Assembly (NCBI GenBank): GCA_017610005.1
Contig: JAFCCU010000003.1
Span: 25,858-89,857, forward strand
From: Candidatus Woesearchaeota archaeon
GTDB lineage: Archaea; Nanobdellota; Nanobdellia; Woesearchaeales; B29-G15
DNA length: 64,000 bases
Direction of reading: 5' to 3'
A program made the position numbers and the translations under genes. Below the pieces are notes generated by a model that was not told the origin of the DNA, did not search any database, and saw only the letters and a program-made list of their open reading frames with translations. The stretch's first letter is position 1; the number at the start of each line of letters is the position of its first letter. Of the stretch, positions 3,811 through 19,180 are shown piece after piece.

Positions 3811-5322
3811 CTACACATTATTTTTCTCACAATTATTATTTAAATCCTTTGGCTGAGAATGACCAGTGACTAACTGATTTAATTTCCTTAATATCTCTAC
3901 TTCTGCGAATGTATCAAGTTCGCAGTAAATTTCTAAGTCTTTTCTTATTTTGGCAACTTCTTCCGAGGGAACATCTTCTAAGCAAATTTTTTCGTAAGAT
4001 GTTGAAGCGTCTCCTCCATTAGCAATATCTAACTCATCATATGATAAATCTGTTAGTGCTGGTAAAACCTTTTTTAATGATGCTGAGCCATCTTGGATAG
4101 GATCATAATAGTAGAAGCTTCTGAATGGGATTATTAGGTCGTTAAATCGTCCTAATATTACTAACCCCCATTTTTGATATTCTGGGCAGTATTCAATGAG
4201 TTCTTTTATTACTCCTATTTCAAATCCTTGATTCCAAGCAAGTATAGTTCCTTTATTTCCTAAATGTTCTTTCATAGATTCCAGAATCGGTTTTCTTGGG
4301 TCTGCTTTCTCGTCTGCTAAGAAAGATATGTGCTTTAGCCCTCCATCTGGCTCTTCTTGAATATGGAGGGAATATTGGAAGGCTATTCTCTTGTATGGAG
4401 TCATTCCATCATATATAGGGATGCACGGGTTAATTGTTTCAAAATCAAAGTAGTATATGGGGTAATTTAATGTACCTAAGAACTGTTTTATCGCTTCTGT
4501 ATGGATAAAATTTTTGCCTGATACTTCACAATCTCTTTGTATTTGTTGTTTGTCAGAGAGCTTAGAATCGCTAGGAATGTCCTTGATAGTGAGAATGTTG
4601 TTTTTATACAATTCCCAAGATCTCTTTCCTCCTCTTGTTAGAGAGAAAACACTGTTTTTTGGAAGAAAACCCCAGCAATTACTTATCAAAGCACAATCAT
4701 AAGGTTTCGAACAATTTTCATGAATATCAACTGAAGGTTTCTCACCATCAAGTATTTTCTTCATGTCAGCAATCCTATCTTCAATGCCTACTAAAAACTC
4801 CTCAACTTGAACAGTAATATCTTCTTTCTTGAATAATATATCTGCTTCAATATCACCTTGTTTAACATATTCATTATTAATGAACATTAAAAAACAATTC
4901 TTGATTTTAAGACCTGATTTCTCATAAACCAATTTTTGGAATGAGACATCGTGAATATTAACATCCTTAACTTCTGTAGAAGATTTAACTTCAATTATAT
5001 CCCAAGATCCATCCTTATTTGGAACAAGGATGTCACCACGACTAAACAAACCATCAATCATGAAACCAGGTTCGAATAAAGGTTTGTTTTCTTTGAGTAG
5101 TTTCTTAGTAGCGTTAATGTTTACCATAAACCCCTCTTCAGAAACATTAATACCCTCAGGAAACAAAGAAGTCGCTAAAACACCAATCGCTGTTCCAGTA
5201 TCAAAAATCTTCTGCTGAGAAGCATCAACTTCAGGAATCTTACTCTTATCATTGACCAAAGTCCAAAGAAGTTTAGAACATTGAAGACCTGCAAGATATT
5301 TGGATTTGGTTAAGAGTACCAT
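3811..5322 (-). CDS. Cas4/RecB-like nuclease fused to DnaQ-like exonuclease (DUF2779-type)
   Basis: 503 aa with two nuclease modules. The first (residues 1-220) has the Cas4/AddB plan: an early Cys (LQCSKLLW, C15), D97 and ExK (IIEVKSS, E111/K113), and a trailing Cys trio C204, C210, C216 that would complete a 4Fe-4S cluster. The second (about 285-490) begins YYFDFETI (D293, E295), continues with ILAWNQGFE, and ends in YCELDTF, resembling a DEDD 3'-5' exonuclease of the DUF2779 type. The ATG overlaps the preceding stop (TAATG) and its stop touches the GTG of the hamA-like gene, so the three are probably translated together. The substrate is unknown. DNA end processing in defence is inferred from the context. 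Confidence 0.75.
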   Translation of the reverse strand: MVLLTKSKYLAGLQCSKLLWTLVNDKSKIPEVDASQQKIFDTGTAIGVLATSLFPEGINVSEEGFMVNINATKKLLKENKPLFEPGFMIDGLFSRGDILVPNKDGSWDIIEVKSSTEVKDVNIHDVSFQKLVYEKSGLKIKNCFLMFINNEYVKQGDIEADILFKKEDITVQVEEFLVGIEDRIADMKKILDGEKPSVDIHENCSKPYDCALISNCWGFLPKNSVFSLTRGGKRSWELYKNNILTIKDIPSDSKLSDKQQIQRDCEVSGKNFIHTEAIKQFLGTLNYPIYYFDFETINPCIPIYDGMTPYKRIAFQYSLHIQEEPDGGLKHISFLADEKADPRKPILESMKEHLGNKGTILAWNQGFEIGVIKELIEYCPEYQKWGLVILGRFNDLIIPFRSFYYYDPIQDGSASLKKVLPALTDLSYDELDIANGGDASTSYEKICLEDVPSEEVAKIRKDLEIYCELDTFAEVEILRKLNQLVTGHSQPKDLNNNCEKNNV

Positions 5323-5999
5323 TATTGAACCTTCCTCACAATTTCTTTAAAATCTGTAATAACATTTTCTTGATAGAAACTAAATATTTCTTTATCAGAA
5401 TAGTTAATCTTATTGCTAGCATCTTCTTTTTTATGAATAAAGAAAGGTGACGCATTTTTTTCAAATAAAGGCAGTATGAATTTAGTAATTTCTGATTTCC
5501 CCCCTTCTTTAAAATAAGAAGCAAATTCTTTGTTAACATTTCTGGAAGATTCAAAGATATAAAATATTCTTTTGAGAGGCACATCAAACTCTGAACTAAG
5601 ATTTTTCAATCGTTCTTTATAATTATCATTTTTAACTAAATCCCTATTCCAACCAATAGTTGTCTTGACTTCTATAATCGCCCAATTCACATTATTCTTT
5701 TTTACTAAGATATCAGGTCTTAATTTATTTTGTTTATATTCCAATAAGATTTTATAGTTTGAAGAAAGAGACGCTCTCAAATATCTAGCAATTAAATCTT
5801 GAAATATATCTGATAATGCGTAATCAATGTTTCTGTTTGCATTCTTCTTATATTCAAATTGAGCAACCCGGATTTTAAATAAGTCATAAAATATTTGATA
5901 TGTTAAATCAGAATTACAAGAACTTAATTGACCCTCTCCTAATGCTTTAAGAAAATTACCAAAATGTTTTGATACGGTTAAATCGCATTTTTTTTTCAT
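5322..5999 (-). CDS. Small PD-(D/E)XK nuclease-like protein
   Basis: 225 aa. The segment NKLRPDILVKKNNVNWAII followed by EVKTT places D96, E110 and K112 in the order of a PD-(D/E)XK nuclease core. The 90-residue N-terminal part is helical (QFEYKKNANRNIDYALSDIF) and has no motif I know. The gene overlaps the ATPase fragment upstream by 4 nt (ATGA) and the downstream double nuclease by a TAATG junction, so it belongs to the operon. It may be a restriction-like nuclease or the effector partner of the ATPase fragment. No specific family is recognised. Confidence 0.6.
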   Translation of the reverse strand: MKKKCDLTVSKHFGNFLKALGEGQLSSCNSDLTYQIFYDLFKIRVAQFEYKKNANRNIDYALSDIFQDLIARYLRASLSSNYKILLEYKQNKLRPDILVKKNNVNWAIIEVKTTIGWNRDLVKNDNYKERLKNLSSEFDVPLKRIFYIFESSRNVNKEFASYFKEGGKSEITKFILPLFEKNASPFFIHKKEDASNKINYSDKEIFSFYQENVITDFKEIVRKVQ

Positions 6000-6298
6000 T
6001 CCCTGTTCCTCAGTTGTTTTGAAAAAGGATCCAATCCATCAAGAAAATATAAAATTTCTTCAAAAATATTATGTGTTGATTTATCAATAGATTCTTGAAT
6101 TTTATCAAACTTGCTTAGTTGTCCTCTTAAAAATTTCCCAAATATGAAATGTCCTTTGACATATATTTTTAAAGCATCTAAAAATGCACTTTTACCACTA
6201 TTATTCTTCCCAATTAAAACTAATGCGTTCTGATTGTTTTCAACTGTTTCATTCTTAATTGCTCGAAAATTTCCAATAGTGACTTTCTCAATTCTCAT
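5996..6298 (-). CDS. Truncated OLD/RecF-like ATPase (N-terminal Walker A fragment)
   Basis: 100 aa. It starts MRIEKVTIGNFRAIKN and carries a Walker A of the type LIGKNNSGKSAF at about residues 27-38, the standard N-terminus of OLD-family and related ABC-type ATPases. Everything after it is missing: no Q-loop partner, signature, Walker B or TOPRIM domain follows, and the protein ends at SKQLRNRE. Overlaps of 4 nt on both sides show that the frame is kept within the operon. It could be a deletion remnant, or a small protein that now works with the following 225-aa nuclease. On its own it cannot form a complete ATPase site. Confidence 0.6.
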   Translation of the reverse strand: MRIEKVTIGNFRAIKNETVENNQNALVLIGKNNSGKSAFLDALKIYVKGHFIFGKFLRGQLSKFDKIQESIDKSTHNIFEEILYFLDGLDPFSKQLRNRE

Positions 6299-7134
6299 TT
6301 TTCTTTCTTCCTGATAACTTCATCAATAGTTTTTTTATCTTTATTTTTCCACTCTATCCAACCATTTGCTCTTCTTCCAAGAATGACTGCAGCAGCTGCA
6401 CTTGGAGAGTTAAATAAATGGTCTTCAGTAAATTCTAAAATATTCTCTTTTGGAACTAATATTTTTTCCCCTTTTAGTTCTTGACGCATACCAATAACCC
6501 AACTTCTTGCAGAAGCTGATTCTTTAATATTGCAAGTTGAGCCTTTATGAACTAGTAATCCATCTTCGATCATAACACCTTTAGCAGATGCATCCTTACC
6601 CTTACAAAATATTAAATCTTTTTGAGTTGTTTTTAATTCATCAAATATTGGAAAGCCAAGAGTTGCAATTATTATTTTTAAATCATCAAAAAAAGTAAGC
6701 GTCAAATCTTTATCTGAATTAGATAAGGTAGGAGAAGAAGTTCCTTTTTCATTATATATTATACATCTATTTATTTTCAACGCTAAAGTATAAGAATAAT
6801 CTTCTAAAAATCTAGCATGAACTTTATTTAGTTCCTTATCAATAGCAGAACAAAAACAGATTGCTAATTTCCAATCTTTTTTCTGATGTTGTTTTATTCT
6901 TGTTCGCAAGTCTTCTGTTTCACCAATATAAATCTCCGGTTTTGTTACAAAATCTTGTTCAGAGTTAATAAGAAAGTATATGCCAGGTCTTTTTAATTCA
7001 TCTATATCCTTCAACCTATCCATCTTATTTCTTGGAATAACATAAGCTTTTGTCATAGAACTGTTAATAGTACACTCCTTAATCCCTTTGGGATCTCCAT
7101 CAGTCAAATAAATTTTAATTGTTCTTCCTCTCAT
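6295..7134 (-). CDS. GIY-YIG nuclease with C-terminal DUF4357
   Basis: 279 aa. The GIY-YIG core is clear: PGIYFLIN at residues 50-57, EIYIGETEDLRTRIKQHQ at 67-84 with the catalytic Arg region, and a Glu in ARFLEDYS near 110. The C-terminus (FNSPSAAAAVILGRRANGW) matches DUF4357, a module often fused to GIY-YIG domains in restriction-associated proteins. The stop overlaps the next start by 4 nt, and it lies 21 nt after the methyltransferase gene. It probably cuts DNA within the restriction operon; its target is not visible. Confidence 0.82.
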   Translation of the reverse strand: MRGRTIKIYLTDGDPKGIKECTINSSMTKAYVIPRNKMDRLKDIDELKRPGIYFLINSEQDFVTKPEIYIGETEDLRTRIKQHQKKDWKLAICFCSAIDKELNKVHARFLEDYSYTLALKINRCIIYNEKGTSSPTLSNSDKDLTLTFFDDLKIIIATLGFPIFDELKTTQKDLIFCKGKDASAKGVMIEDGLLVHKGSTCNIKESASARSWVIGMRQELKGEKILVPKENILEFTEDHLFNSPSAAAAVILGRRANGWIEWKNKDKKTIDEVIRKKEK

Positions 7135-7155
7135 CTTAGCACCTAATCAACCATT

Positions 7156-8757
7156 TCATTTTCTCCGATTAATTCTTCTATTTTTTAATTTATTCCAAAT
7201 TTTACGAATTTCTTTAACCTCTTTATTGCTAAGTTCTAAATTATCTTCTAAAAGAATTTTGTCATTAATATCCAAAACCATTTCTATCTCTTTTGATCGG
7301 ATGTGTTTATCAATTCTTTTTGGATCTAATAAATCCATTCCTTTAGTGGGCAAAGGTAACATCTCGCATTCTGATGGTTCAAATGTGAGTACACCACCAC
7401 CATAACTCCTACCCATCAACTCAGCATACACCAATGTGAGGCTGTTTAGAAAAGCAGCTATTACTTTGTCTTTATTAGGATGTAATATTTTAACCCGATG
7501 TATTGTATCAGTGGAAGTTGCTCCATTTAAATTTTGAATCAGTTTAGGGTATTCATGAACTTGTCGAAGCATAAATGCATCGGGTACATGAACGCTTGGA
7601 ACTATAAACCATTTTTTTCTGATTCTACATTTATATCCTTTATGAGCTAAGTTTTTCTCTCCATAATCAATATAACTTCTTTCATTCACATTTAATTTTT
7701 CATATTCTTTATCTTCAGGATAGAACATATATGAAGGCAAATTGTCATTTATATTTATTTCCCAATCATTTTTACTAAATAATATTCCTTTAAGATGATT
7801 GCTTCTGGTAACAATATTTAGTGTAGACTTTGATAATTTCCTATCAAAAATTTCGTTTGGTTTTAAAATAAAAAAATTATTTCTTCCAGTAACTACACCT
7901 ACATCAACATCAATGTATTTACTAGCCAAATCACATTTAGTTTTCTCTCGAATACCATGCAAGAAATTTATTTCATTTTTTTCTAAAAAATAATAAGTCC
8001 ACTTATCTTTTGAATGAAGTAAGTCTTTTGCTTCAAGATTGGCCAATTTTTTTGAAGTCACTGATTCTAGTTCAGTTTCATCTGTTAACTCTAAAGTCCT
8101 TATCTGTGATGTTTTTTTACCATCTTTTTCCGCTAAAATAAGAACTACTTCCTGTTGAACTTTAGAAAATAATAATTTTTGGAATGTAATAATAGTTATC
8201 TCACAAAACTCATCAGACAAGAATTTTCTAGTGTCTGCAGCATAATTCACTTGAAATAATTCAGCAGGAATTACCATGCCTAAACGACCATCTTTTTTGA
8301 GTAATTTAGAGCATATAACTAAAAATGGCACCCATATATTTGTCAATCTATTAGGATATAAACCAAATGAATTCATTAGTTTAAATGCAGTTTCTCTATA
8401 TTCTTCAACAAAATTTTGATATCTTATGAATGGAGGATTTCCTAAAACCCCATCAAACATAATTCCATTTTCTATAAATTTTTTTGCTTGAGTAAAAAAG
8501 TCACCATCAATATGCGTTCCAGTGAAATTATTTTGCTTATATATCTTTTTGATTTTATTCCCTTCTTTAGGATCCAATTCAATCGAAGTAACATTTACAT
8601 TTTTTCCCAATTCAACAATTGACTTTACAAATGATCCATCACCAGCACTAGGCTCAAGAACATCATTTGAAACTTCTAATACCCATTTTGATAAGAATTG
8701 TGAAACTAGTTCAGGAGTATAATAACCACCTCTTAATTTGTCGTAATTAACTTTCAT
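7156..8757 (-). CDS. N6-adenine DNA methyltransferase (Eco57I/TaqI-like)
   Basis: 533 aa. SAM-binding motif I is VLEPSAGDGSF (33-43) and the catalytic motif IV is GNPPFIRYQ (106-114), the NPPF type of gamma N6-adenine methyltransferases. The C-terminal half (YGGGVLTFEPSECEMLPLP) resembles the target-recognition part of Eco57I/TaqI-like enzymes. It overlaps the preceding 1015-aa restriction-modification gene by 11 nt. A second methylase beside a fused R-M protein could modify the other strand of an asymmetric site, or provide self-marking for the rest of the operon. No nuclease motif is seen in this protein. Confidence 0.85.
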   Translation of the reverse strand: MKVNYDKLRGGYYTPELVSQFLSKWVLEVSNDVLEPSAGDGSFVKSIVELGKNVNVTSIELDPKEGNKIKKIYKQNNFTGTHIDGDFFTQAKKFIENGIMFDGVLGNPPFIRYQNFVEEYRETAFKLMNSFGLYPNRLTNIWVPFLVICSKLLKKDGRLGMVIPAELFQVNYAADTRKFLSDEFCEITIITFQKLLFSKVQQEVVLILAEKDGKKTSQIRTLELTDETELESVTSKKLANLEAKDLLHSKDKWTYYFLEKNEINFLHGIREKTKCDLASKYIDVDVGVVTGRNNFFILKPNEIFDRKLSKSTLNIVTRSNHLKGILFSKNDWEININDNLPSYMFYPEDKEYEKLNVNERSYIDYGEKNLAHKGYKCRIRKKWFIVPSVHVPDAFMLRQVHEYPKLIQNLNGATSTDTIHRVKILHPNKDKVIAAFLNSLTLVYAELMGRSYGGGVLTFEPSECEMLPLPTKGMDLLDPKRIDKHIRSKEIEMVLDINDKILLEDNLELSNKEVKEIRKIWNKLKNRRINRRK

Positions 8758-11700
8758 TATTCGATACCATTTCTAGTTCTGTATATTCTTCAAAGTGTTT
8801 TTTCTCTTCTTTTGTGAAGTAGTAAATTTTATCAATTTCAGAAAATAACTTATTATTTAATGCATTATATTTACGCAATAACAGAGTTTTATCTTTACCA
8901 GACTTACATTTCTGAATTTTGAGTCTTAATTCTATTATCTCTTTTGTTGTTTTAGGAATAGATTCATACTTAGATTCAAATTTAGGGAAAGGTATTTTTG
9001 AAATAAATTGTTTACCATGAGAACCGTAACCCCCTCTAAATATACTAGCTCTACTCCGAACAAATGTTTCTATTATTGGATGAGATAAGATTCCAAAAAT
9101 AAATAATAAGGGAGTATCTAAAGATTTGGATCTTAATGCATAATATGGTCCATTACCTCCTCCGGTTATTGTAATATTATTACTATCTATATTATATCGT
9201 GGTTCTAAAGACAATACTGGCCAAATCATTTTTGGAGTATCATTAAATTTTATTAAACTTTGAGATCTTCCAAATTGATACCAAGTTGTTTTATTTTGTA
9301 TGCTCCTCTTCTCAAGATCCTTTTTAAAACTTAGAAGATATTCATATGCAAGAGGATATTTTTTTTCCATAACTTTTTCTTCGATTAATTCGGCAGTTTT
9401 CTTATTTACATTATAAGGGAAAATCATATAACTATTTGCCTTTGGTATGCCAAACGGCTCCAAGATTACGTCATATAAACAAGGTCTGAGAATTAATTTT
9501 TCAATTTTGTGTTCTTTTCCATTTTTATCATCAAAAATAACATAATCTTTTGATTCTTTCTTTGGTTTAATTATGTAAATTTTATCAGCACTTGTTTGCA
9601 AACCTACAAATATATCTGCGTAAGTATCTAATGTTGATAGATTCTCATCAGCATTCATTCTATCAAAAACATGTGATATTTCTTTAGGAACAAATACCCA
9701 TGGATCTTCAGTTAGCTTATCTGCAGATAATTCACTTAGCACTTGATCTTCTTTCAATGCCCATTCATTAATCTTATTTACGAATTCGTAATTAATTTTA
9801 CCTTTAGATTTATCTTTGTTCAAAATAAGAATACAAGTATATGTGGCAGTTTTTGATTTGAATACTTGGGTGATCCCAAAATGAGTAAGTAAATCAATGT
9901 TTGACTTATCAATAATTAATTTTCTCAAAGATTTACCTGCTTTAATAACAAAAAATTTGTGCGGAACTATATATCCCAAGATTCCTTGTGAATTTAAAAA
10001 ACTTAATGACCGTTCTATAAAAAGGAAATACTTGTCATAATTATTACTTTTTGAAGTTAAGTAGTTTGATTTATCGCTTTGATAGAACTCTACTTCCTTT
10101 GGAGAGTATTTCACCATGTTTTGTATCCTGATATAAGGTGGATTGCCAACAATTATGTCAAATCCTCCCTCGTAAAAGATATCTTTAAATGACGTTTTTA
10201 AATCAAATGGATTAATAGATATTAGTTGTTTATCATCAATAACATCATCAGAAAAATCAAAGAAGGTTTCATCAATCAAACTATTTCCCCAATGAATATT
10301 TGAATCAAGTTTGGGTAATACTGGTTTTTTGAAAGTTGAAATATAATGTTCTATCTCATCTTCAGTAACATCTTCTAAAAGTTTTACTAATAAACTGAAT
10401 TTAGCTACTTGAACTGCTTGGTAATCAATGTCAACACCAAATAGGTTGTTTTCTAAAATGTCTCTTTTTTCTTTAAGAGTTAATTTCCATTCACCATCAC
10501 TTGTTTTAAACACTGATGATTTATGTTTAGTAGGATTATTTTCTACATAATATTTTAATTTTCGGCTCATTAAGGCTTTAAATGCAGATAATAAGAATAC
10601 ACCTGATCCACAAGCAATATCTGCCAATTTAATTTTGATTAGTTTATCAATATCATTAGATTCATTAAATGAAGATATTGATCTATCAACAATTTTATCA
10701 ACAATATAATCAGGAGTTGTAATCGCACCTTGTTGGTGAACAATTTCCTCTTTAACACAAACTTCAATTTTTTTATTAATAAGCCTAATTTCTTTAGATA
10801 AGAATAGCTCATAAATATCACCAAGCATTGAAGGTTCAACAATGGAGAATGCAAATGGGCTCAGCGGATAATATAAACTTTTAAAAATATCAATTAAGAT
10901 TTTATCATCAAGTTTCATTTCAAAAGAAAGCTTATCTTCTATGAAATCAAACAAACCAGAATCGTATTTTTTATCAGCTTCAACAAATATTTTTTTCAAT
11001 TCCCCATAATTTTTTACTTCTTTAAGCTTTTCATAATTTTCAAATTCACGATCTTCACATATTCTTAGAAAAATGATTCTATTTATTGTTTGTTGAACTA
11101 AAAAATTAATTTGATCAATTGGTAATTTAGTATTATTTTTAACTATATTTTTAGCAATATTTACTCTCCATTCTTCAATCTGATTCAAAAAATATTGATC
11201 AAATAATTCAATTCCTTTTACAGGTTTATTTTTAGGAAAAAGATTCAGCAGAGATCCATTGATAATTTCTTCTTTCGAAATTAGAGATTTTATTTCATCA
11301 AATTTATCCACATATTCATCATATGAATATATTACATAACGAGCATTTTTTTCGGAATCATCTGCTTTTGGTCTAAATCTAGTATCATACACAACTAAAT
11401 TTTCAAAATTAAAGAGGATAGATATAGATAAATTAGCGTTCCAACCATAACGTCTTACTTGAAAAGCTGATGGTTTTGATGTAGTAATATTAACAAATGG
11501 TTTTTTAGCTTCTACAAAAAGTACTCTAGAAGCGTTCAGTCTTAAAGTATAATCTGGTTTCTTCTTGTGTTTTTCTTCATCTATCTCTATGGATTCTTCT
11601 TGTACCACATCACGGAAAAAATGAAGCTGCCTTTCTTTATTTGAAACATCCCAACCCATTATTTCCAAGAATGAATTAATAAAATCAGTTCTAACTTGTG

Positions 11701-11794
11701 TTTCATTATATGTTTTTTTAAGATATTCTTCCCTATTTGATTCATAGAGATCCACAAGCTTTTTCATACCTTCTTTATCATGAGTTATCTCCAT
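8747..11794 (-). CDS. Fused restriction-modification enzyme (type IIG-like)
   Basis: 1015 aa. The N-terminus has a nuclease core KKKPDYTLRL then VLFVEAKKP (D81, E95, K97). A long helical linker leads to the methyltransferase with motif I LADIACGSGVFLL (about 395) and motif IV GNPPYIRIQ (about 555). The last third (GGYGSHGKQFISKIPFP) resembles a target-recognition domain. Nuclease, N6-adenine methylase and specificity on one chain is the plan of type IIG/IIL enzymes. The ATG at 11794 overlaps the TAA of the ribbon-helix-helix gene by one base. All motifs look intact, so the enzyme is probably active. Confidence 0.88.
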   Translation of the reverse strand: MEITHDKEGMKKLVDLYESNREEYLKKTYNETQVRTDFINSFLEIMGWDVSNKERQLHFFRDVVQEESIEIDEEKHKKKPDYTLRLNASRVLFVEAKKPFVNITTSKPSAFQVRRYGWNANLSISILFNFENLVVYDTRFRPKADDSEKNARYVIYSYDEYVDKFDEIKSLISKEEIINGSLLNLFPKNKPVKGIELFDQYFLNQIEEWRVNIAKNIVKNNTKLPIDQINFLVQQTINRIIFLRICEDREFENYEKLKEVKNYGELKKIFVEADKKYDSGLFDFIEDKLSFEMKLDDKILIDIFKSLYYPLSPFAFSIVEPSMLGDIYELFLSKEIRLINKKIEVCVKEEIVHQQGAITTPDYIVDKIVDRSISSFNESNDIDKLIKIKLADIACGSGVFLLSAFKALMSRKLKYYVENNPTKHKSSVFKTSDGEWKLTLKEKRDILENNLFGVDIDYQAVQVAKFSLLVKLLEDVTEDEIEHYISTFKKPVLPKLDSNIHWGNSLIDETFFDFSDDVIDDKQLISINPFDLKTSFKDIFYEGGFDIIVGNPPYIRIQNMVKYSPKEVEFYQSDKSNYLTSKSNNYDKYFLFIERSLSFLNSQGILGYIVPHKFFVIKAGKSLRKLIIDKSNIDLLTHFGITQVFKSKTATYTCILILNKDKSKGKINYEFVNKINEWALKEDQVLSELSADKLTEDPWVFVPKEISHVFDRMNADENLSTLDTYADIFVGLQTSADKIYIIKPKKESKDYVIFDDKNGKEHKIEKLILRPCLYDVILEPFGIPKANSYMIFPYNVNKKTAELIEEKVMEKKYPLAYEYLLSFKKDLEKRSIQNKTTWYQFGRSQSLIKFNDTPKMIWPVLSLEPRYNIDSNNITITGGGNGPYYALRSKSLDTPLLFIFGILSHPIIETFVRSRASIFRGGYGSHGKQFISKIPFPKFESKYESIPKTTKEIIELRLKIQKCKSGKDKTLLLRKYNALNNKLFSEIDKIYYFTKEEKKHFEEYTELEMVSNNES

Positions 11795-11940
11795 TATTGG
11801 TCTCCCCCATCTTCCGATATTTGTTTTTCCATTAGAATTTCAAATTGTCGTGACACAATCCAACCTTTATTTTTACAGAATTCTTTGTATTTATCATAAA
11901 GTTCTTCATTAACTCGAAGAGTCACGTTTTTTGTTGCCAT
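11794..11940 (-). CDS. Ribbon-helix-helix regulator, first gene of the defence operon
   Basis: 48 aa, starting MATKNVTLRVNEELYDKY. A short beta strand (VTLRV) followed by two helices is the ribbon-helix-helix fold of CopG/MetJ-type repressors. A strong ribosome binding site (GAGGGGG) lies about 6 nt before the ATG, and a TATA-like element about 55 nt upstream. The stop codon overlaps the ATG of the restriction-modification gene by 1 nt (TAATG). As the first gene of a nine-gene defence operon it probably represses the operon promoter. DNA binding is inferred from the fold. Confidence 0.7.
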   Translation of the reverse strand: MATKNVTLRVNEELYDKYKEFCKNKGWIVSRQFEILMEKQISEDGGDQ

Positions 11941-11964
11941 TTTTAGCCCCCTCTGGATGTGTTG

Positions 11965-12010
11965 ATTAGTATAGTTATTACAATTGATTACATTTGTATA
12001 TAAATGTTGT
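11965..12010 (-). promoter_or_regulatory. Promoter of the defence operon
   Basis: On the minus strand an archaeal box A, ATTTATATA, lies at about 12005-11997. A start site about 25 bases downstream would fall near 11973, giving a leader of about 33 nt that contains the GAGGGGG ribosome binding site. It lies between the cas1 stop and the ribbon-helix-helix gene, so the operon appears to have its own promoter. Confidence 0.5.
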
Positions 12011-12094
12011 GATGTGAGTGATATTTAAGAGAAATCAGGAACGTTTTTACTGACAAGTCAATTTGATTTAATCCTTAATCCCATTCTTTAATCC

Positions 12095-13285
12095 CTAAAA
12101 AGTGCTTATTAATCTCTCAAGAACATGTTTATTTAGGCTAAATGGCTTATTATTGCGTGCATTTTTCTTCATGTAATGCAGTGTTCCTCTAGAAAACCCT
12201 AGTTTCCCCCATTGTGTATAACTTACGTCAAGGATTTTTTTACGAATTTCTGCGGTATCAATACGAATTAAAGGTTCATGAGGTGTTGTAAAGTCAAGTT
12301 TCTTGCGTTTTCCAATCAGATAATAAGCTAATTCTCTTGCTTTAATCAATATCATATAACTCCAAGTTCTATTTCCCCCTGTATACTTAATCTTTGTATT
12401 AATCTGATTATTAATCTCTTCAACAAGCTTTTTAGCACCGTTTGGTCTTAATCTTAAATTGTAGTTTTCTGTTCGAACAAAATCACTTTTTTGCATTTCA
12501 TTTCTTTCTATAAGCGATATTACGGCAAGATCTACTAAAAATCTAAATGGCTCTTGTAAATCATATGCTAAGCTATGTTTTCCTATGGTCATTTGATGTA
12601 AAAATCCTACATGGACATCTAATCCAGCACTATTGATGGCTTTTCTGCATTCAGCTTCAAGTAATGCAAATCCATAATTGAGCATTGTATTAATTTGGTC
12701 GCTTGCTCCTTTTGGATGTTCTATTGTTTTTCTTCCTTGAAATTCATATTTGTCAGGCATTATTTTTTTGAATTCTTTCCAGTAATGAGATGCGATTCTA
12801 CCTTCGACCATCATTAATTCATTGATTGTCTTTGCTTTCTTGAATAGTTTAAGTTCTTTTGAGAAGTCAGTATTGACTGATTCGTATCGTTCATTTAACC
12901 AGTCTAGGACTGCTTGTGTTCGTAAGAATTTTGCATCAAGTAATTTCCTTGCAATAATAATTCGTTTATTCATATCTCTATAAGACTCGTATTGTGCAAA
13001 TTTTGTCTTTACTTGTACACTTTCTGGAGGGAGCATTGTAGTAAGTAATTTGCCATTCCAGTTAAGAATACTAACTTGTACACTATGTTTAATCAACCAT
13101 CGAATAGAATCAATACTAATATTTCCATTCTGACCATAAATAATTATATGGTCATATTCAATTCTTTTTGGTGCGAACACATATTCTTCTGGCTTTTCAT
13201 CATTGAATTTTCCATCCTTTACATGAAGCTTGGCACTGTCTACTCGAAGATTTATGCCATGACCATTTAATAGAAGCATTTTCAT
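12095..13285 (-). CDS. cas1: Casposase-like Cas1 integrase with C-terminal HTH
   Basis: 396 aa from the ATG at 13285, which overlaps the TGA of the upstream gene; a longer start at 13300 is possible. Cas1 catalytic features are present: E161 in MMVEGRIASHYW, H230 in VGFLHQM, and D242/E245 in YDLQEPFRFLVD. After residue 330 there is an extension with a helix-turn-helix (GFSRGTLHYMKKNARN) and RL near the end, as in casposases and unlike most CRISPR Cas1. No cas2, other cas gene or CRISPR array is nearby, while PolB, HNH and small DNA-binding proteins are. I therefore call it the integrase of a casposon-like element. It would integrate linear DNA ends using terminal inverted repeats. Confidence 0.88.
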   Translation of the reverse strand: MKMLLLNGHGINLRVDSAKLHVKDGKFNDEKPEEYVFAPKRIEYDHIIIYGQNGNISIDSIRWLIKHSVQVSILNWNGKLLTTMLPPESVQVKTKFAQYESYRDMNKRIIIARKLLDAKFLRTQAVLDWLNERYESVNTDFSKELKLFKKAKTINELMMVEGRIASHYWKEFKKIMPDKYEFQGRKTIEHPKGASDQINTMLNYGFALLEAECRKAINSAGLDVHVGFLHQMTIGKHSLAYDLQEPFRFLVDLAVISLIERNEMQKSDFVRTENYNLRLRPNGAKKLVEEINNQINTKIKYTGGNRTWSYMILIKARELAYYLIGKRKKLDFTTPHEPLIRIDTAEIRKKILDVSYTQWGKLGFSRGTLHYMKKNARNNKPFSLNKHVLERLISTF

Positions 13286-13962
13286 TCTAATTCCCCCCAT
13301 TTGAGATAATTATCAATTACTGATGAAAACGAAATTTTAGTGTTTGGATATATCAAATACAAATAATAATTTAGAAAGTTTTCAAATTTCAAATCTAAAA
13401 AAAGATATTCTACTATTTCCATTTGCTTATTTGTTCTTTTTTTAATCTGTTCAATTGTTTTATTTCTATATATGCGAATGTCTTTTTCTCTTACCCAAAT
13501 ATTCATTTTATTTTTCTCTCGATATGTACTGATTTTCAGGAAGTCAGTCAGGTTTTCGAGTATAGCTATTTCATCTTTTTGAGCTTTTTCTAATTTTTGT
13601 AAGATATACTTTTTTGATATAATCGCTAGTTTTGTTTTCTTAAGTTCATATATTTTTTTTCTATGTTCCCATTTTGACTTAACTAGCTTGAGGATTTCTA
13701 ATTGTTGAAGATTCTTTGATATTTGTTGTTCTGTTTTATCTATATATTCAGTGTAATTTTTACCATATGTTGTAATACTACACATTATGATTAATAACTC
13801 TCCCAGAGATTTACTTGAAAATATCATTAAGTTATTTACTTTTACAGTGCCTTTTTTTATGTTGTAATTTGACCAATTCTTACATCTACAACTAGGGCAA
13901 GAACTTGGTGTATTAGTTCTTGGTTTCCATTTATGTCCGCATTTTTTACAAGTATATTCCAT
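13282..13962 (-). CDS. Zinc-ribbon protein with predicted winged-helix, upstream of cas1
   Basis: 226 aa. The N-terminus is a four-Cys zinc ribbon (YTCKKCGHKW, then SSCPSCRCKNW). Residues 50-115 look like a winged helix (LGELLIIMCSITTYGKNYT, ISKNLQQLEILKLVKS), as in ArsR/MarR-type regulators, followed by a basic helical region. The stop overlaps the cas1 start, so the two are cotranscribed. It is divergently oriented to the ribbon-helix-helix gene at 14026 and may regulate the shared intergenic region or assist end recognition. The family is not recognised. Confidence 0.6.
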   Translation of the reverse strand: MEYTCKKCGHKWKPRTNTPSSCPSCRCKNWSNYNIKKGTVKVNNLMIFSSKSLGELLIIMCSITTYGKNYTEYIDKTEQQISKNLQQLEILKLVKSKWEHRKKIYELKKTKLAIISKKYILQKLEKAQKDEIAILENLTDFLKISTYREKNKMNIWVREKDIRIYRNKTIEQIKKRTNKQMEIVEYLFLDLKFENFLNYYLYLIYPNTKISFSSVIDNYLKWGELE

Positions 13963-13989
13963 CTGCTACAATCAATTTATGTAATGTGT

Positions 13990-14025
13990 ATTTCTTTATA
14001 TGCTTTTCGCTTACATAATAGTACA
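13990..14025 (+). promoter_or_regulatory. Promoter for the PolB operon (leaderless)
   Basis: A TATA box CTTTATATG at about 13994-14002 sits about 25 bases before the ATG at 14026, which fits a leaderless archaeal transcript. The 63-bp space is shared with the divergent zinc-ribbon gene starting at 13962. Confidence 0.5.
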
Positions 14026-14163
14026 ATGGAAACAATAACAATTAGAATTGATAAAAAGTTGAAAAAGCAACTCTTAGCCTATTGCAAAAAGAATGAACGA
14101 ACAGCATCAAACACTATCAGATATGCACTAATTCAGTTTATGAGATCAGAAAAAGGTAATTGA
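14026..14163 (+). CDS. Ribbon-helix-helix DNA-binding protein
   Basis: 45 aa from the ATG at 14026 (METITIRIDKKLKKQLLAY); an in-frame extension back to 13933 runs through the promoter and is unlikely. The strand-helix-helix pattern ITIRIDKKLKKQLLAYC... TASNTIRYALIQFM is typical of ribbon-helix-helix proteins. It lies 1 base before the 209-aa gene, at the head of the PolB operon of the casposon-like module. It is probably an autoregulator. It differs clearly from the 48-aa ribbon-helix-helix protein of the defence operon. Confidence 0.65.
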   Translation: METITIRIDKKLKKQLLAYCKKNERTASNTIRYALIQFMRSEKGN

Positions 14164-14164
14164 T

Positions 14165-14794
14165 ATGAGATTCTCACGTACTTTTTCTTCATTTGCAGAA
14201 TGGTTAAACCAAGATCAGCGTACTTCAAGATATGCTAAAGAAATCATAAAAAAGCATATTCTCTATCCAAGACTTACACTTAATGAGCTTCGCAACATAA
14301 GAATATCAAGTTATGATCTCTCAAGAAAGCCGTTTATATTATTATCAAACAGAGAAATAACACTCAGACAAAAGGCATTACAAATTATTAATAGAATGAG
14401 GAATGGTGAATCTTTCAAAAATAGTATGAATGGAGTTGATATTTCTATAAGGGATGTAAAAAGACATCTTGGCAAAGCATTATTCAAAAAAAGAGGAAGA
14501 GTTCTAGCCAGACTATCTGATAATATTCAAAGACCATTACATTTCTATGAAAAAGGAGAACTTACAGAAATAATTACGAGAAACTTTCGAGATGCTTCAA
14601 AAGTTGCTCGATATATGAATGCTGTAAAAAATGCATTAACTGGAAATGAATCTAATCTGCAAGAATTCAAAGGGAAATTCATTATTGATGCCAAAGGTAA
14701 AAAAAGATATTTTGAGACTGATTTGAATAAGCTTCAAAAAATATCTGAACAAATTGAAGATCCTGAATACTTCGAATTGTATTCATGGGAATGA
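14165..14794 (+). CDS. Unknown protein of the casposon-like module
   Basis: 209 aa, basic and mostly helical, beginning MRFSRTFSSFAEWLNQ. A central segment (IRDVKRHLGKALFKKRGRV) is strongly basic. I recognise no domain. The gene is one base downstream of the ribbon-helix-helix gene and precedes the HNH and PolB genes, so it is probably part of the same transcript. A role in DNA binding or replication initiation of the element is plausible but only inferred. Confidence 0.5.
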   Translation: MRFSRTFSSFAEWLNQDQRTSRYAKEIIKKHILYPRLTLNELRNIRISSYDLSRKPFILLSNREITLRQKALQIINRMRNGESFKNSMNGVDISIRDVKRHLGKALFKKRGRVLARLSDNIQRPLHFYEKGELTEIITRNFRDASKVARYMNAVKNALTGNESNLQEFKGKFIIDAKGKKRYFETDLNKLQKISEQIEDPEYFELYSWE

Positions 14795-14855
14795 CTGATT
14801 AAAACTGAACAAAATGAAATAATAACATAGCGATAGCTATGAGAGGAAAATAAAA

Positions 14856-15167
14856 ATGAACAAAATAAATACAAAAAAACAGGGTAATTGCTTCTATTGT
14901 AATTATCCAGCTTCAAGAAAAGTTCCACTAGAAGGACATCATGTATTCGGTAATGGTAATTCAGAATTCATGATCTGGATATGTAATAACTGCCATCGAA
15001 ACATAACAATAGGACAACAAAAAGGACTTCCTAAAGTTTGTAGAGAAAAACAAAAAGGTGTAAACACAGAGTTTGCATCACTTTCTCTAGTTCTTCATTT
15101 GGAAACATTAGGTAAAGAATATTCCAGAATACTCAAAGAAAAAATGATTGAAGAGAATAAAAAATGA
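14856..15167 (+). CDS. HNH endonuclease-like protein
   Basis: 103 aa. The order CFYCNYPA, LEGHHVFG and ICNNCHRN gives two CxxC pairs around a His-His, the treble-clef HNH nuclease pattern. The stop codon overlaps the PolB start by 4 nt. HNH nucleases next to cas1 and polB are a known feature of several casposon families, where they may help excision or replication. A promoter was not obvious, so it is probably read from the upstream genes. Confidence 0.75.
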   Translation: MNKINTKKQGNCFYCNYPASRKVPLEGHHVFGNGNSEFMIWICNNCHRNITIGQQKGLPKVCREKQKGVNTEFASLSLVLHLETLGKEYSRILKEKMIEENKK

Positions 15168-17821
15168 ATGCTGCTTATGTAAGAGGGTATTTTAAAAAAG
15201 TTAAAGAACCAATACAGAGAAAATATAACTTTGCAAAGAGAATTAAAAAAGACTCATCATTAATTTTTGTATTTGATACAGAAACTACAATTGACACATT
15301 GCAAAATCTCAAAGTTGGATATTATACTGTACTGGATAAAACCAATAACACAATCATAGAAGTAGGATTTTTTTATGATGAAAATTATTGTTCAAAAACA
15401 GAAATTGAACACATTTTCAATTATTGTAAAAATAAAAGAGTAAATATTTTTGAAAAATCTAAGTTTATGTTAGAAGTATTCTATAATTATATTTTGAGAA
15501 AAGGTGCTTTATGTGTGGGTTTTAATTTGCCATTTGATTTTAGCAGAATTTCCATTGATGCAACAACAACAAAAGGAAAGAAGTTTCATAATGGATTCTC
15601 ATTCAAACTCACAGAAAATAAAGCATTTCCTCGACTAAAAATAAAATCTAATGGAAATGCATTTTCATTAATTCAATTTGGTAGTTCAATAATAAACAAA
15701 GGAAGGTACTATTATGGCGGAAGGTTTCTTGATCTACACACATTAACAAAAGTCCTGACTGGAAAACATTTATCGCTAAAAAATGCCTGTGAAAAATTAA
15801 ATGTTGATGGTTTTAAACAAGAAACAGAACATGGAAATATAACTCAAAAATATCTTAAATATCTTGAAAATGATGTTCTTATAACATTAAAACTCTATCA
15901 AGCACTCGTTAAAGAATATGAATTATACTGTTGTCCAAAACCACCCGAACAATTATTCACCCAAGCAACAATGGGTAAATCGGTTCTTGATCAAATGAAC
16001 ATAAAAAAATTCAGTAAACTAAATCCTGAATTTCCTGAAGAAATACTTGGACTTCTAATGAATGCATATTATGGTGGAAGAAGTGAAGTAAAATGCAGAG
16101 AAGATCCTATAAAAATATCTCTTCTAGATTTTACCAGTATGTATCCTACAGTCAACATTTTATGTGATATGCAAAAATACCTCTTAGCAAAGAAAATCAA
16201 AGTAATTGAATGCACAGAAGAAATAAAGAATATGTTATCATCAATCACTATTCAAGACTTACAAAAACCCGCTATTTGGAAACAAATGAACGCTATATGC
16301 ATACTAAAACCTCAAGATGATATTTTCCCATTAAGAACAACTTTTAACAAAGACGAACAAGGGAAAAACATAGGGATATGCTCTATAGATTCTCAAAAAA
16401 GAATGTCATACTCACTTGCCGATGTGATTGGCTCAAAAATATTATCTGGAAAAATTCCCCAAATAATAAAAGCATACAAATTCATTCCTGAAGGAAAACA
16501 AGTAAATTTGAAAGCAGTAAATCTACTAGGATCACTCATAAATCCAAAAAAAGACGATATTTTCAAAACAATAGTTCTTGAAAGACAACGAGCAAAAAAA
16601 GAAATGGCTAATCTAGAAAGGAACACAGACCAATTTAGATTATTAAATAGTAAACAACTAGTCTTAAAATTTATTAGCAACAGTACTTGTTACGGTATAT
16701 TTGTTGAATCACACCCTGAATTTGAAAGATCAAATGTTGAAGTATATGGACTTGACGAGTTTATTGCAGACGGAGTTTTTGAAGATCAAGGAATTTATTT
16801 TAATCCAATAATGGCTGTAACCATTACAAGTACATCAAGATTATTATTATCAATTATTGAAGTCCTACTAAGAGAACAAAATGAACAATATGCCTTTTGT
16901 GATACAGATAGCATGGCAGTCCCTATAGACACAGTCAATATGCTACAAGAATACTTTAAACCACTAAACCCTTACGGAGAAGAAATAGAACTATTAAAAG
17001 AAGAAAGGCACAATGTCTGGTTCTATGGAATAAGTGCGAAAAGATATTGTTTATTTGAAAAAGAAGGAAACAACATCAAAATATTAAAACCCTCATTGCA
17101 TGGACTAGGGCATTTACTAAATCCATTTAGTGAAAAAACCCAATCATGGCACAAAACAATATGGGAAACAATTCTCAAACTACATTACAATATAATGAGT
17201 AAAGAATCATTCACACAAAGCTACGGATCACTCTTCGCAGTTACACAAATGAAAATAAGCAATCAAGAAATAATGAAACGAGTAAAAACAATAAACAAAG
17301 GAAAACCATACGACCAAAGAATAAAACCATACGGTTTCGTATCAGTAGGAACAGGAACAAAAAAAGAAAACGGAAAACACATAAAACCAATAACGCCATT
17401 TAACAGAAATACACAAATAACAGCAAGAGAAGAATTCATGGACTCACAAACAGGAAAGAAACTGAAAGGAACACAATACTGGAAAACACTCAACAGAGTA
17501 ATTGAAGATTACATAGAACACCCAGAATCAAAACTAGAAGGAGAAAAAGGATATCTAAAAAGAAGACACATAAAAATAGATTCAATAACAATAATAGGAA
17601 AAGAAGCAAAGAAAGTATACATGGAACCACTAGGAATAACACCTGCAACAGAATTCCATAATAAAGAAGAGCTTTTCAAAAAAATACTAGAAATAACAAA
17701 TAAAGAAGCAAAAAAGAAAGGAGTAACAAGACCAACACTCTGGAAAATAAAAGAAAAAATCAGAACAGGAAAAAATATTAATCTAAAAACAAGTGCAGTA
17801 AGAAAACTACTTGGATCTTAA
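15164..17821 (+). CDS. polB: Family B DNA polymerase of the casposon-like module
   Basis: 885 aa. All key motifs are present. Exonuclease: Exo I FVFDTET (D38, E40), Exo II VGFNLPFDFSR, Exo III YLENDVLI. Polymerase: motif A LLDFTSMYPTV (about 322), motif B SNSTCYGIF (about 505), motif C FCDTDSMAV (about 578) and the KRY motif SAKRYCLFEK. An active polymerase with proofreading is expected. The C-terminus (GVTRPTLWKIKEKIRTGKN) is a helix-turn-helix that aligns with the end of Cas1 in this module. Whether priming is by protein or nucleic acid cannot be told by eye. Together with Cas1 it makes a self-synthesising element likely. Confidence 0.9.
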   Translation: MNAAYVRGYFKKVKEPIQRKYNFAKRIKKDSSLIFVFDTETTIDTLQNLKVGYYTVLDKTNNTIIEVGFFYDENYCSKTEIEHIFNYCKNKRVNIFEKSKFMLEVFYNYILRKGALCVGFNLPFDFSRISIDATTTKGKKFHNGFSFKLTENKAFPRLKIKSNGNAFSLIQFGSSIINKGRYYYGGRFLDLHTLTKVLTGKHLSLKNACEKLNVDGFKQETEHGNITQKYLKYLENDVLITLKLYQALVKEYELYCCPKPPEQLFTQATMGKSVLDQMNIKKFSKLNPEFPEEILGLLMNAYYGGRSEVKCREDPIKISLLDFTSMYPTVNILCDMQKYLLAKKIKVIECTEEIKNMLSSITIQDLQKPAIWKQMNAICILKPQDDIFPLRTTFNKDEQGKNIGICSIDSQKRMSYSLADVIGSKILSGKIPQIIKAYKFIPEGKQVNLKAVNLLGSLINPKKDDIFKTIVLERQRAKKEMANLERNTDQFRLLNSKQLVLKFISNSTCYGIFVESHPEFERSNVEVYGLDEFIADGVFEDQGIYFNPIMAVTITSTSRLLLSIIEVLLREQNEQYAFCDTDSMAVPIDTVNMLQEYFKPLNPYGEEIELLKEERHNVWFYGISAKRYCLFEKEGNNIKILKPSLHGLGHLLNPFSEKTQSWHKTIWETILKLHYNIMSKESFTQSYGSLFAVTQMKISNQEIMKRVKTINKGKPYDQRIKPYGFVSVGTGTKKENGKHIKPITPFNRNTQITAREEFMDSQTGKKLKGTQYWKTLNRVIEDYIEHPESKLEGEKGYLKRRHIKIDSITIIGKEAKKVYMEPLGITPATEFHNKEELFKKILEITNKEAKKKGVTRPTLWKIKEKIRTGKNINLKTSAVRKLLGS

Positions 17822-18861
17822 CTATTATTATTGAGAGTATCTGCTGGATGAAATAAATTCTTTTGAAATAAGGGATAAGCTAATGAAAATGTATTAGTTT
17901 CTGCTAAAACATCATTAATTAACTCTTCATGAAATGTATTCATCCCTTGGAATTTAGCAATTAAATATGATTCAATATCGACTGAAAAATATTCTAACAC
18001 ATTTAACATTAATCCCATGATACGATCAGATTTTTCATAATGATTAAATTCCATGCCTTGACTGATACCATATAATGAAAACAAGGAATCACGATAATTT
18101 ACTTTTCCTCTTAATCTATATAAACAATGCAAAAAGTTTGATTCTTTTAACTGTTGATAGTGATTTTCTCGAATAGCTTTAGATGCAGTTGTTCTAAAAT
18201 TATCTTTATCCAAGTCTCGTTTAACTTCCTTAATTGCATTTTGTAACTGAACTGAATTTTCCCAATACCATCTATTAGTTCCCTTCAAATAAGAAAAAAT
18301 AGCACTTTTAGAATCAATTTCTGTAAGCGAGGGGATAATTAATGGACGAGAAAGAGGTGTTACATCAGTATATTCATCAGCACCTTTAATAATTTGAAAC
18401 TCACTATCATTTGAACTATCAGTATATTTTCCTGTTAAATTAAATGGGAATGCTAATTCTTCACAATAAAGAGTGTAGTTATGACAGGTTTTAGAATGTG
18501 TTTTCAAAATATTTTTATTATGAGCATAAGTAAAACAGTTAGCTAAAGAGTAGATCGCATAATAAAAAGATATTCCAGCAACTTGAATAAGAGGTATTCG
18601 TTCAGTAGAAGGTAAATTAGACATCCTTTTTAAATTATTCATTAGCTTATAAGAAAAAAATAGCTGTTCAAATATGAATTGTTTATTCTCATTTGTTAAG
18701 GGAGTGGTACGAGAGATATTTCCTCGATATTCAGCGAGTCTTGTCTCTTTAAATTCTTCAATGCTTTGTTCACGTAATGCAGAAAGTACACCATATAAGT
18801 AATTATACATACTTGGTAAAGCAAATGATTTGTAATCCCCACCAATTTCTGTATATAACAT
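17818..18861 (-). CDS. Unknown 347-aa protein at the right side of the island
   Basis: 347 aa, convergent with polB and overlapping its stop by 4 nt. Start ATG at 18861, with a TATA-like GTTTATAAATAG about 40 nt upstream. The protein is mostly helical, with a tract LIQVAGISFYYAIYSLANCF around 90-110. It has some resemblance in character to YaaC-like or HEPN-like helical proteins, but no motif confirms this. It is the last gene before the dispersed repeats begin and may be cargo of the mobile element. Confidence 0.5.
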   Translation of the reverse strand: MLYTEIGGDYKSFALPSMYNYLYGVLSALREQSIEEFKETRLAEYRGNISRTTPLTNENKQFIFEQLFFSYKLMNNLKRMSNLPSTERIPLIQVAGISFYYAIYSLANCFTYAHNKNILKTHSKTCHNYTLYCEELAFPFNLTGKYTDSSNDSEFQIIKGADEYTDVTPLSRPLIIPSLTEIDSKSAIFSYLKGTNRWYWENSVQLQNAIKEVKRDLDKDNFRTTASKAIRENHYQQLKESNFLHCLYRLRGKVNYRDSLFSLYGISQGMEFNHYEKSDRIMGLMLNVLEYFSVDIESYLIAKFQGMNTFHEELINDVLAETNTFSLAYPLFQKNLFHPADTLNNNS

Positions 18862-18997
18862 AATATATAGATATGTTCAACAATTCATAAAATTATCTAT
18901 TTATAAACCAAGTTTCTCAAAAACCACTTATAAAGGCGTTTCCTTTTTCAGAGATGTATATATCCCGCTATTTCTTTTTTAAATTAAATGGAATTAT

Positions 18998-19077
18998 TTT
19001 CCCACAGGGAAAGGGTGCCACGCACCCACCTTTTTACTAGATTTTTTGGAAAAATCTAGTTTGTTAATCCGGGTGGG
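18998..19077. repeat. Nested hairpin cluster
   Basis: Four inverted repeats lie within 80 bases: TTTCCC/GGGAAA (18998-19012), GGGTG/CACCC (19013-19027), a perfect 11-bp stem ACTAGATTTTT with a 3-base loop (19036-19060), and CCCACC/GGTGGG (19025-19030 with 19072-19077) enclosing the 11-bp stem. It may be a structured RNA, a terminator, or a recombination end next to the island. Confidence 0.6.
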
Positions 19078-19086
19078 GCTATTTTT

Positions 19087-19180
19087 TAGTCTGGAGAGCT
19101 CAAAACAGTCTGAAGTGAAAAACACATTCTACCAAACCACTATACCCTCTACCTCAAAGCTCACAAAGTGTGGTGTATAA
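19087..19180 (-). repeat. Composite dispersed repeat, copy 1
   Basis: Contains GTCTGAAGTGAAAAACAC followed by an A/C-rich block (CTATACCCTCTACCTCAAAG). Read on the minus strand it matches the copies at 24,420, 31,026, 38,888, 51,517, 52,825 and 63,702. Confidence 0.6.

Follow-up and report, generated by a model that had tools for sequence, protein, structure and literature searches.

Does a solo cas1 gene beside polB and HNH genes in an archaeal genome mark a complete casposon, and if so, which site does the element occupy and what does it carry? We analyzed this question for a cas1-polB module in a stretch of 64,000 nucleotides (nt), here referred to as the window, which covers positions 25,858 to 89,857 of contig JAFCCU010000003.1 (here C47) of assembly GCA_017610005.1, filed as Candidatus Woesearchaeota archaeon. 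The assembly has a size of 1.58 Mb in 62 contigs with a bin contamination of 4.22%, and C47 is 89,857 nt long. A preliminary description, made from the letters of the window, had proposed that positions 12095–17821 are a casposon-like module. Among the sources proposed for the CRISPR adaptation enzyme, casposons are the leading one.

Judged from its sequence, the locus is very probably a complete casposon of the family 2 kind at the 3' end of a tRNA-Gln(CTG) gene in a likely DPANN host. It combines a core that likely moves it through its own Cas1 integrase with a cargo predicted to act against foreign DNA and, most likely, a changed choice of target.

Extent and ends of the element

The proposed casposon was borne out, with positions 12095–17821 representing its core only. 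Reading the contig beyond the window revealed an element of 19,284 bp (window -317 to 18966, C47:25540-44823), bounded by perfect 31-bp terminal inverted repeats (TIRs) and perfect 14-bp target site duplications (TSDs):

1..18966, no strand: part of the casposon inside the window, the left 317 nt lying outside
-317 to -287, outside the window: left TIR, 31 bp, starting GGGATATATA
18936..18966, minus strand: right TIR, 31 bp, GGGATATATACATCTCTGAAAAAGGAAACGC read inward, 31/31 identical to the left TIR
C47:25526-25539: left TSD copy, overlapping the last 4 nt of tRNA-Gln(CTG) (5 by the ARAGORN boundaries)
18967..18980, plus strand: right TSD copy; TSD GCTATTTCTTTTTT, 14/14 identical

An end motif (GGG..ATA) with 14-bp duplications was learned from loci of Methanolobus and Methanosalsum, whose Cas1 proteins are 55-60% identical, and was then applied here. 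One instance reads inward from 18966; its partner is on C47 as well, 317 nt to the left of the window. With the left end that far outside, a TIR search confined to the window had yielded nothing above shuffled sequences. Across the whole assembly, the initial 22 nt of the TIR are found at just two sites, even with up to 3 mismatches allowed. Shuffling the contig 20 times produced perfect inverted pairs of at most 15–18 nt; the observed pair of 31 nt is far above chance. The sole further 31-nt inverted pair in the contig belongs to a satellite of CTTCAGA-like 7-nt units, with inverted copies at C47:41-260 and 12441-12660, about 12 kb apart and left of the window.

The tRNA-Gln(CTG) gene is located directly left of the element, which is inserted at the 3' end of the tRNA. 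Since the TSD opens with the final four bases of the tRNA, GCTA, the tRNA was left whole. The GC content of the element is 29.4%, compared to 34% in both flanks. Its length lies within the range of 7-20 kb given for casposons (PMC4104785; here and below, statements from cited papers refer to the accessible parts of their text), and the matching TIRs and TSDs are those expected of a casposon. The full identity of both repeat pairs, together with the open frames of the core genes, indicates a recent insertion.

Two observations were made next to these ends. A Fic-domain gene (19219-20115) just outside the casposon is flanked by 31-nt direct repeats with 87% identity (19151-19181 and 20194-20224). 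A short repeat of 65-100 nt is present at four sites of the assembly (window 18996-19085; C14:12462-12547; C21:12232-12294; C25:57934-57997). The copies on C47 and C14 lie behind a tRNA gene, and their final 15-19 nt repeat the 3' end of that tRNA; on C14 the arrangement is in tandem, and the tRNA there was judged by eye and had no ARAGORN call. This repeat looks like a mini-element with its own targeting of tRNA 3' ends or like the footprint of older insertions.

The casposase and its relatives

The gene on which the question turns is the following:

12095-13300, minus strand: cas1 casposase, 401 aa, with C-terminal helix-turn-helix (HTH); Cas1 Pfam E 8.7e-64

The protein aligned with the Methanosarcina mazei casposase (structure 6OPM) over residues 6-397 with an E-value of 1.6e-163, and 237 of the 392 aligned residues (60%) were identical. 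The alignment extends through residue 397 and therewith covers the C-terminal HTH. The predicted catalytic residues E166, H235, D247 and E250 were present, being invariant in 12 aligned casposases. Residues at the casposon end or the catalytic site (W77, Y206, H232, E247 and R250 in M. mazei numbering) were the same in 120/120 homologs, and D46, K238, Y243, D244, R280 and T309 (same numbering) were retained as well. The C-termini of Cas1 and of the B-family DNA polymerase (PolB) resembled each other, with 15/50 identical amino acids and a pairwise E-value of 2e-7 for two 75-aa pieces. In IMG/VR the Cas1 protein gave one short C-terminal match, and an alignment used as query gave none.

For most of the methanogen loci L021-L042 the match was confined to the final 20-80 residues of Cas1, its HTH part; these are casposon end fragments or free HTH pieces.

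A tree of 40 Cas1 rows separated 34 casposases, including that of the window, from six CRISPR Cas1 proteins with support of 100/100; the tree tool flagged long branches for the CRISPR rows and for two DPANN-type genomes described below, G411 and G416, and a Haloferax fragment and L007 were omitted. The window Cas1 grouped with five metagenomic proteins (P0002-P0006), outside the clade of named methanogen casposases. A recent transfer from that named methanogen clade is therefore unsupported. Treating the window clade and the methanogens as one side of the tree was weakly rejected (p-AU, the P value of the approximately unbiased test, 0.036). The rows had been chosen by likeness to the window, with Aciduliprofundum boonei and families 1 and 3 absent, so that transfer may have run in either direction.

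That Cas1 might instead be a CRISPR adaptation enzyme which lost its neighbours is suggested by its family match to CRISPR models. The tree, the C-terminal HTH and the TIRs and TSDs all contradict this. Moreover, neither a second Cas1 nor any Cas2 was found in the assembly, and a scan that covered C47, but not the other 61 contigs, detected no CRISPR-like array. The features of a CRISPR adaptation module, cas2 and an array, are thus absent within these limits, as the preliminary description of a solo cas1 had stated. We rejected this explanation, which is scarcely credible. The words "ancestor of CRISPR adaptation" describe casposons as a class, for which this ancestry is proposed.

Core genes

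The remaining genes between cas1 and the right TIR were:

13282..13962, minus strand: 226-aa protein, overlapping cas1, with a weak N-terminal zinc-ribbon match (Pfam, below cut-off)
13933-14163, plus strand: small ribbon-helix-helix-like protein, weak matches below cut-off, start of the open reading frame (ORF) overlapping the divergent gene
14165..14794, plus strand: conserved casposon core protein, 209 aa, HTH-like stretch by eye, 38-41% to the L003/L004/L005 casposons, conserved in an alignment of 8
14856-15167, plus strand: HNH nuclease-like protein, 103 aa, weak matches (Pfam HNH E 0.045, PHROG HNH E 4.6e-5)
15164-17821, plus strand: PolB with 3'-5' exonuclease motifs and HTH-like C-terminus (Pfam DNA_pol_B E 4.8e-5; 22.8 bits, just below the cut-off of 23)
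17818..18861, minus strand: 347-aa protein, last gene before the right TIR

The order of the core was common to the window, Methanolobus (L003, L005) and the DPANN-type genomes G489, G411 and G416, in part as judged by eye. A DNA-binding-like gene stands beside cas1, and divergent from these two follow a gene like that of the 209-aa protein, an HNH-like gene where present, and polB. The small genes match the methanogen casposon core by order and partly by sequence. The 226-aa gene occupies the position of the HTH-HEAT-like gene of methanogen casposons (comparison with L003/L005), and a short ribbon-helix-helix-like ORF was seen by eye at the equivalent place in L005. The weak HNH profile matches are accompanied by residues (C-x2-C / HH / C-x2-CH) common to 4/4 aligned casposon HNH proteins, that of the window included. 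PolB retains motifs of the exonuclease (by eye FDTETT, NLPFDF, YLEND) and of the polymerase (DFTSMYP, KFISNSTCYG and, as motif C, FCDTDS). The HNH, PolB and small DNA-binding genes of the preliminary description were thus recovered at their positions, the first as an HNH-like gene and the last in the form of the weakly matching ribbon-helix-helix-like protein. For the 347-aa protein no match was obtained in Pfam, NCBIfam, PADLOC or PHROGs at the limits used.

Some results speak against assigning all of these genes to a known casposon core. The 226-aa protein had no HEAT match and no sequence match in 44 related loci, and it is equated with the methanogen HTH-HEAT gene by its position. For the 209-aa protein the predicted fold was confident (pLDDT 87.3), yet it matched 0 solved structures at E ≤ 0.001 (59 matches at E ≤ 10).

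A 48-aa open frame (11796-11942, minus strand), ribbon-helix-helix-like by eye, lies between the cargo and cas1 and may regulate the element.

The Cas1 of P0002 was 95% identical to that of the window, and the 209-aa protein reached 93% with P0241. P0002 and P0241 both come from contigs of 34,861 nt, and therefore probably represent one contig of a sister element. This bears on whether the casposon could be intact in sequence and nevertheless immobile, a fossil kept for useful defence genes. Such a fossil would fit the single copy in the assembly and a probably truncated 100-aa ATPase in the cargo. The repeats and open core frames that suggest a recent insertion, as well as the close relatives in a probable sister element, argue against it, and we regard a fossil as unlikely. 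The element is accordingly likely to be mobile.

Empty site and host

A genome of the same genus, G002, offers a view of the site without the element. Nine proteins of the left flank were syntenic with 52-84% identity (one antisense ORF left out of the count), followed by tRNA-Gln without casposon. The right flank was not syntenic, which weighs against a clean empty site; the latter is accordingly shown from the left side only, and another rearrangement must have happened on the right. No casposase was found in either of the two same-genus genomes searched, G001 (77% complete) and G002 (97%).

It has to be considered whether the contig entered the bin as contamination from a methanogen, since most named close casposases come from methanogens and the bin is contaminated to the extent given above. 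The left flank, however, is syntenic with the same-genus genome. Most named homologs of the right-flank UvrD (24570-26624) among the best 120 listed are from Nanoarchaeota or Woesearchaeota, with a few others, e.g. Thermoplasmatota. In addition, the clade of named methanogen casposases does not include the window Cas1, and casposase-like matches exist in five further genomes of the same class. Contamination was rejected on these grounds as highly improbable. With one flank protein tested, the host is likely an archaeon of the DPANN group.

Target recognition

In the M. mazei structure 6OPM, base-specific contacts to the target are made by R191 and R192 alone, which touch the guanines that face the two C's of CGCA, and little or no activity was left when both were changed to Ala (PMC6977970). 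The 14 bp of the M. mazei TSD comprise the final 4 bp of tRNA-Leu and 10 further bp, and the casposon end reads TATATCCC (PMC6977970). This type of targeting, CGCA at the TSD start with two arginines, is absent from the window element, which has Glu-His at positions 191-192 and the target GCTA. Because the CGCA-reading arginines are replaced in this way, the choice of target most likely differs from that of the methanogen elements.

To compare these residues with targets, 40 stretches with casposases were taken from the class of Methanolobus, in which 32/237 genomes were positive at E ≤ 1e-100; the stretches do not cover all 50 listed matches, and L003 (Arg-Arg, CGCA) was not counted. Ends were called with a GGG start, TIRs of ≥12/16 and TSDs of ≥11/14, either TSD orientation being accepted where no tRNA was present. 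From 55 casposase rows 39 were usable, as 14 had no ends, L007 was the same locus as G644, and G634_2 was a piece of the element of G634_1. In tandem arrays (G633_1, G657_0, G634) the assigned pair of ends may belong to a neighbouring casposase.

All Arg-Arg casposases had CGCA (24/24), compared to 7/15 of the others (Fisher p 1.0e-4, uncorrected for relatedness). The same was found for the Arg-Arg rows with an orientation fixed by a tRNA (14/14). Casposases with R192 but without R191 had C at position 3 in 11/11 cases, a weak test with either orientation allowed for 9/11. Among the 120 homologs, a set that includes the window, R192 was Arg in 95, and Glu/Asp-His was kept in the five nearest homologs of the window, P0002-P0006. 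The pairing fits a reading head that changes together with its target.

Several observations limit this interpretation. The Fisher value overstates independence, because the Arg-Arg rows are mostly related methanogen elements and the tRNA cases are all tRNA-Leu. CGCA also persists in one Arg-Gly element, and C stands at position 3 in G416 (Ser-His), for which, as for G411, the alignment near residues 191-192 is unsure. The link between Glu-His and GCTA rests on one element with known ends. Finally, six other DNA-contacting positions differ from M. mazei (N69S, M194K, E233Q, N239H, R287K and H323Y), so that the reading pair is not the sole change.

The casposon could also be a true one whose target is set by the body of the tRNA, Glu-His then reflecting neutral drift without re-targeting. 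In the M. mazei work, the TSD by itself served poorly as a target and had to be extended by 30 bp of the tRNA, and the upstream 15-30 bp mattered in vitro (PMC6977970). The 7/15 casposases that keep CGCA without Arg-Arg, and the strong variation of both residues in the 120 homologs, agree with drift as well. On the other side stand the uniform CGCA of the Arg-Arg group, the conservation of Glu/Asp-His in P0002-P0006 and, as a weak test, the R192-only casposases. We consider neutral drift a serious possibility that falls somewhat short of an even chance, and re-targeting through the reading pair the preferred reading.

Cargo genes

Eight minus-strand cargo genes occupy window positions 1-11794:

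8747..11794, minus strand: Type IIG restriction enzyme-methyltransferase (Eco57I with HsdR-N), full-length match, PADLOC 1019.8 bits, Pfam Eco57I
7156..8757, minus strand: Eco57I-type adenine methyltransferase
6295..7134, minus strand: GIY-YIG + DUF4357 protein, PADLOC candidate PDC-S14
5996..6298, minus strand: OLD/GajA-like ATPase, 100-aa N-terminal piece, probably truncated
5322..5999, minus strand: possible PD-(D/E)XK nuclease, 225 aa, Pfam PDDEXK_9 E 0.0019, below cut-off
3811..5322, minus strand: DUF2779 protein, 503 aa, Pfam E 6.6e-36
2935..3810, minus strand: HamA-like protein (Hachiman) / PDC-M23A, Pfam HamA 32.5 bits (cut-off 25), PADLOC PDC-M23A E 2.3e-18
1..2969 (ORF C47:25701-28826), minus strand: HamB-like DEAD helicase / PDC-M23B, 1041 aa, PDC-M23B E 4.8e-232, HamB E 2e-92

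The family names predict that the cargo acts against foreign DNA. HamA (DUF1837) and the HamB helicase stand side by side as in Hachiman (HamAB), by profile only. HamA scored above its cut-off and the Type IIG/Eco57I enzyme matched over its full length, in likeness to the known systems. Unlike Hachiman, the HamA/HamB-like pair scored better as the PADLOC candidate PDC-M23A/B and is carried by a casposon. In the 44 related loci, HamB had two matches, the Type IIG enzyme one and the remaining cargo none.

Casposons in other DPANN-type genomes

Casposase-like matches were found in 2/371 genomes of the phylum at E ≤ 1e-40 and in 6/378 genomes of the class at E ≤ 1e-30; both overlapping sets include the window genome. 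Two of these genomes carry further complete casposons. In G411 (L067+L068, G411:C8, 9560-23095) an element of 13.5 kb has perfect 224-bp TIRs, the TSD CCCTATTCTGATTG at tRNA-Ser(CGA) and an open 392-aa Cas1. In G416 an element of 10.4 kb has TIRs of at least 16 bp and the TSD GGCAGTTTTATCTG, given in tRNA orientation, at tRNA-Arg(GCG). Both carry pilin-like or surface-protein-like genes as judged by eye; in the G411 element pilin-like and glycosyltransferase-like genes were seen.

Less complete cases were found, too. G489 has a full-length Cas1 at 62% and core genes, its ends not being found within its 14.5-kb contig. G356 has one end only, GGGGTATAG, beside a tRNA-Gln(CTG) ending in GCTA, with a C-terminal piece of Cas1. 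In G142 (L059, G142:C69, 14674-15378), a genome of the same order, Cas1 is cut after ~162 residues and unrelated sequence continues, which represents a decayed or reused casposase. No PADLOC match was obtained for six proteins from the cargo or the neighbourhood in G411, G416 and G489; predicted defence cargo is therefore a property of the window element and not shown for the others.

Of 60 genomes of the order, two had any Cas1 at all, namely that of the window and G024. In the latter (L061, G024:C92) the cas1-like ORF stands, by eye, between cas4- and cas2-like ORFs; a probable Cas12-type gene precedes them, and an array-like repeat was seen.

In the Cas1 tree G489, G411, G416 and P0071, a casposase named Woesearchaeota, were placed apart from the window group. 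A single lineage of DPANN casposons was rejected: forcing the five DPANN-type rows together cost 227 log-likelihood units (p-AU 7e-7), with the long-branch warning noted above. Several entries of casposons into DPANN-type archaea and an old presence with exchange both fit.

Single casposase genes such as P0071 were already in public protein databases. The accessible text of the casposon literature touching DPANN, Woesearchaeota or Nanoarchaeota (PMC6393860, PMC7544198, PMC5704561, PMC7694759, PMC10354927, PMC4104785), subscription papers and preprints being outside its scope, describes no DPANN casposon. Relative to this literature the complete casposons in DPANN-type genomes, that of the window and those at tRNA-Ser and tRNA-Arg, are new. 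The possible re-targeting is a second new point.

Related loci showed further arrangements. A second TIR-like end directly after the TSD was seen in G416:C7 (L069+L070, left of 11776), L003 (after 14052) and L005 (after 18560), representing tandem casposon insertions or remnants at one site. Methanolobus vulcani L003 has a second casposase copy on the opposite strand near the first (10001-11194 and 16486-17109), i.e. a nested, merged or neighbouring casposon.

Relation to known casposons

The window element resembles the M. mazei casposons (6OPM; MetMaz) in its 60% identical Cas1 with C-terminal HTH, the TIR beginning with GGGATATA, the 14-bp TSD that includes 4 bp of a tRNA 3' end, and the core of polB and HNH. 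It differs in its tRNA (Gln vs Leu), the target bases (GCTA vs CGCA), the reading pair (Glu-His vs Arg-Arg) and the positions N69, M194, E233, N239, R287 and H323, and it is larger, with predicted defence cargo and a likely DPANN host.

The family 2 description (PMC4046053) agrees in Cas1-HTH, PolB with an HTH-like C-terminus, HNH, a putative HTH protein and the tRNA 3'-end target. Family 2 elements have two different HTH proteins, one of which carries HEAT repeats; the candidates here are the 209-aa protein, with its HTH-like stretch by eye, and the 226-aa protein, which corresponds by position. That family is given as 6-16 kb and euryarchaeal (PMC4046053), unlike the 19.3-kb element in a DPANN-type genome, whose 226-aa protein also lacks a detectable HEAT repeat; a methanogen casposon of 19,165 bp was found as well. 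The assignment to family 2 follows from the gene content and the similarity to M. mazei, the tree holding no references labelled families 1, 3 or 4.

By its published description, the casposon of A. boonei is similar in its tRNA 3'-end target (tRNA-Pro) and an N6 methyltransferase among its genes. Its PolB belongs to a group named for CDTDS in motif C (PMC7544198), to be compared with FCDTDS in the window PolB.

By analogy with the M. mazei work, the casposase would bind the TIR ends GGGATATA, whose eight bases are also those of the 6OPM complex, and would join the TIR 3' ends to both strands 14 bp apart at the tRNA end. Repair would then duplicate these 14 bp, leaving the tRNA whole. PolB and host factors may copy the element, and the HNH and HTH proteins may aid excision or targeting. 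After excision one site would remain, in agreement with the in vivo report on M. mazei Go1 (PMC10359463). The defence genes might pay for the stay of the element by shielding the host cell, and hence the element, from viruses and rival elements.

In a wider proposal, DPANN archaea would be an old and overlooked reservoir of casposons, and changes in a two-residue reading head would direct the casposases to different tRNA genes (Gln, Ser, Arg). Arg-Arg would read CGCA at tRNA-Leu in methanogens and Glu/Asp-His GCTA at tRNA-Gln here, the elements carrying defence islands in genomes often without CRISPR. We put this forward tentatively and lean against it as a whole.

How a site-specific transposase became dedicated to a single locus, the CRISPR leader, is a standing question. 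Two casposases that are 60% identical, differ in targets and reading residues, and include one solved structure form a natural pair for this question of targeting. With the present analysis, the range of complete casposons comes to include a large group of archaea with small genomes, one of the elements being loaded with likely defence genes.

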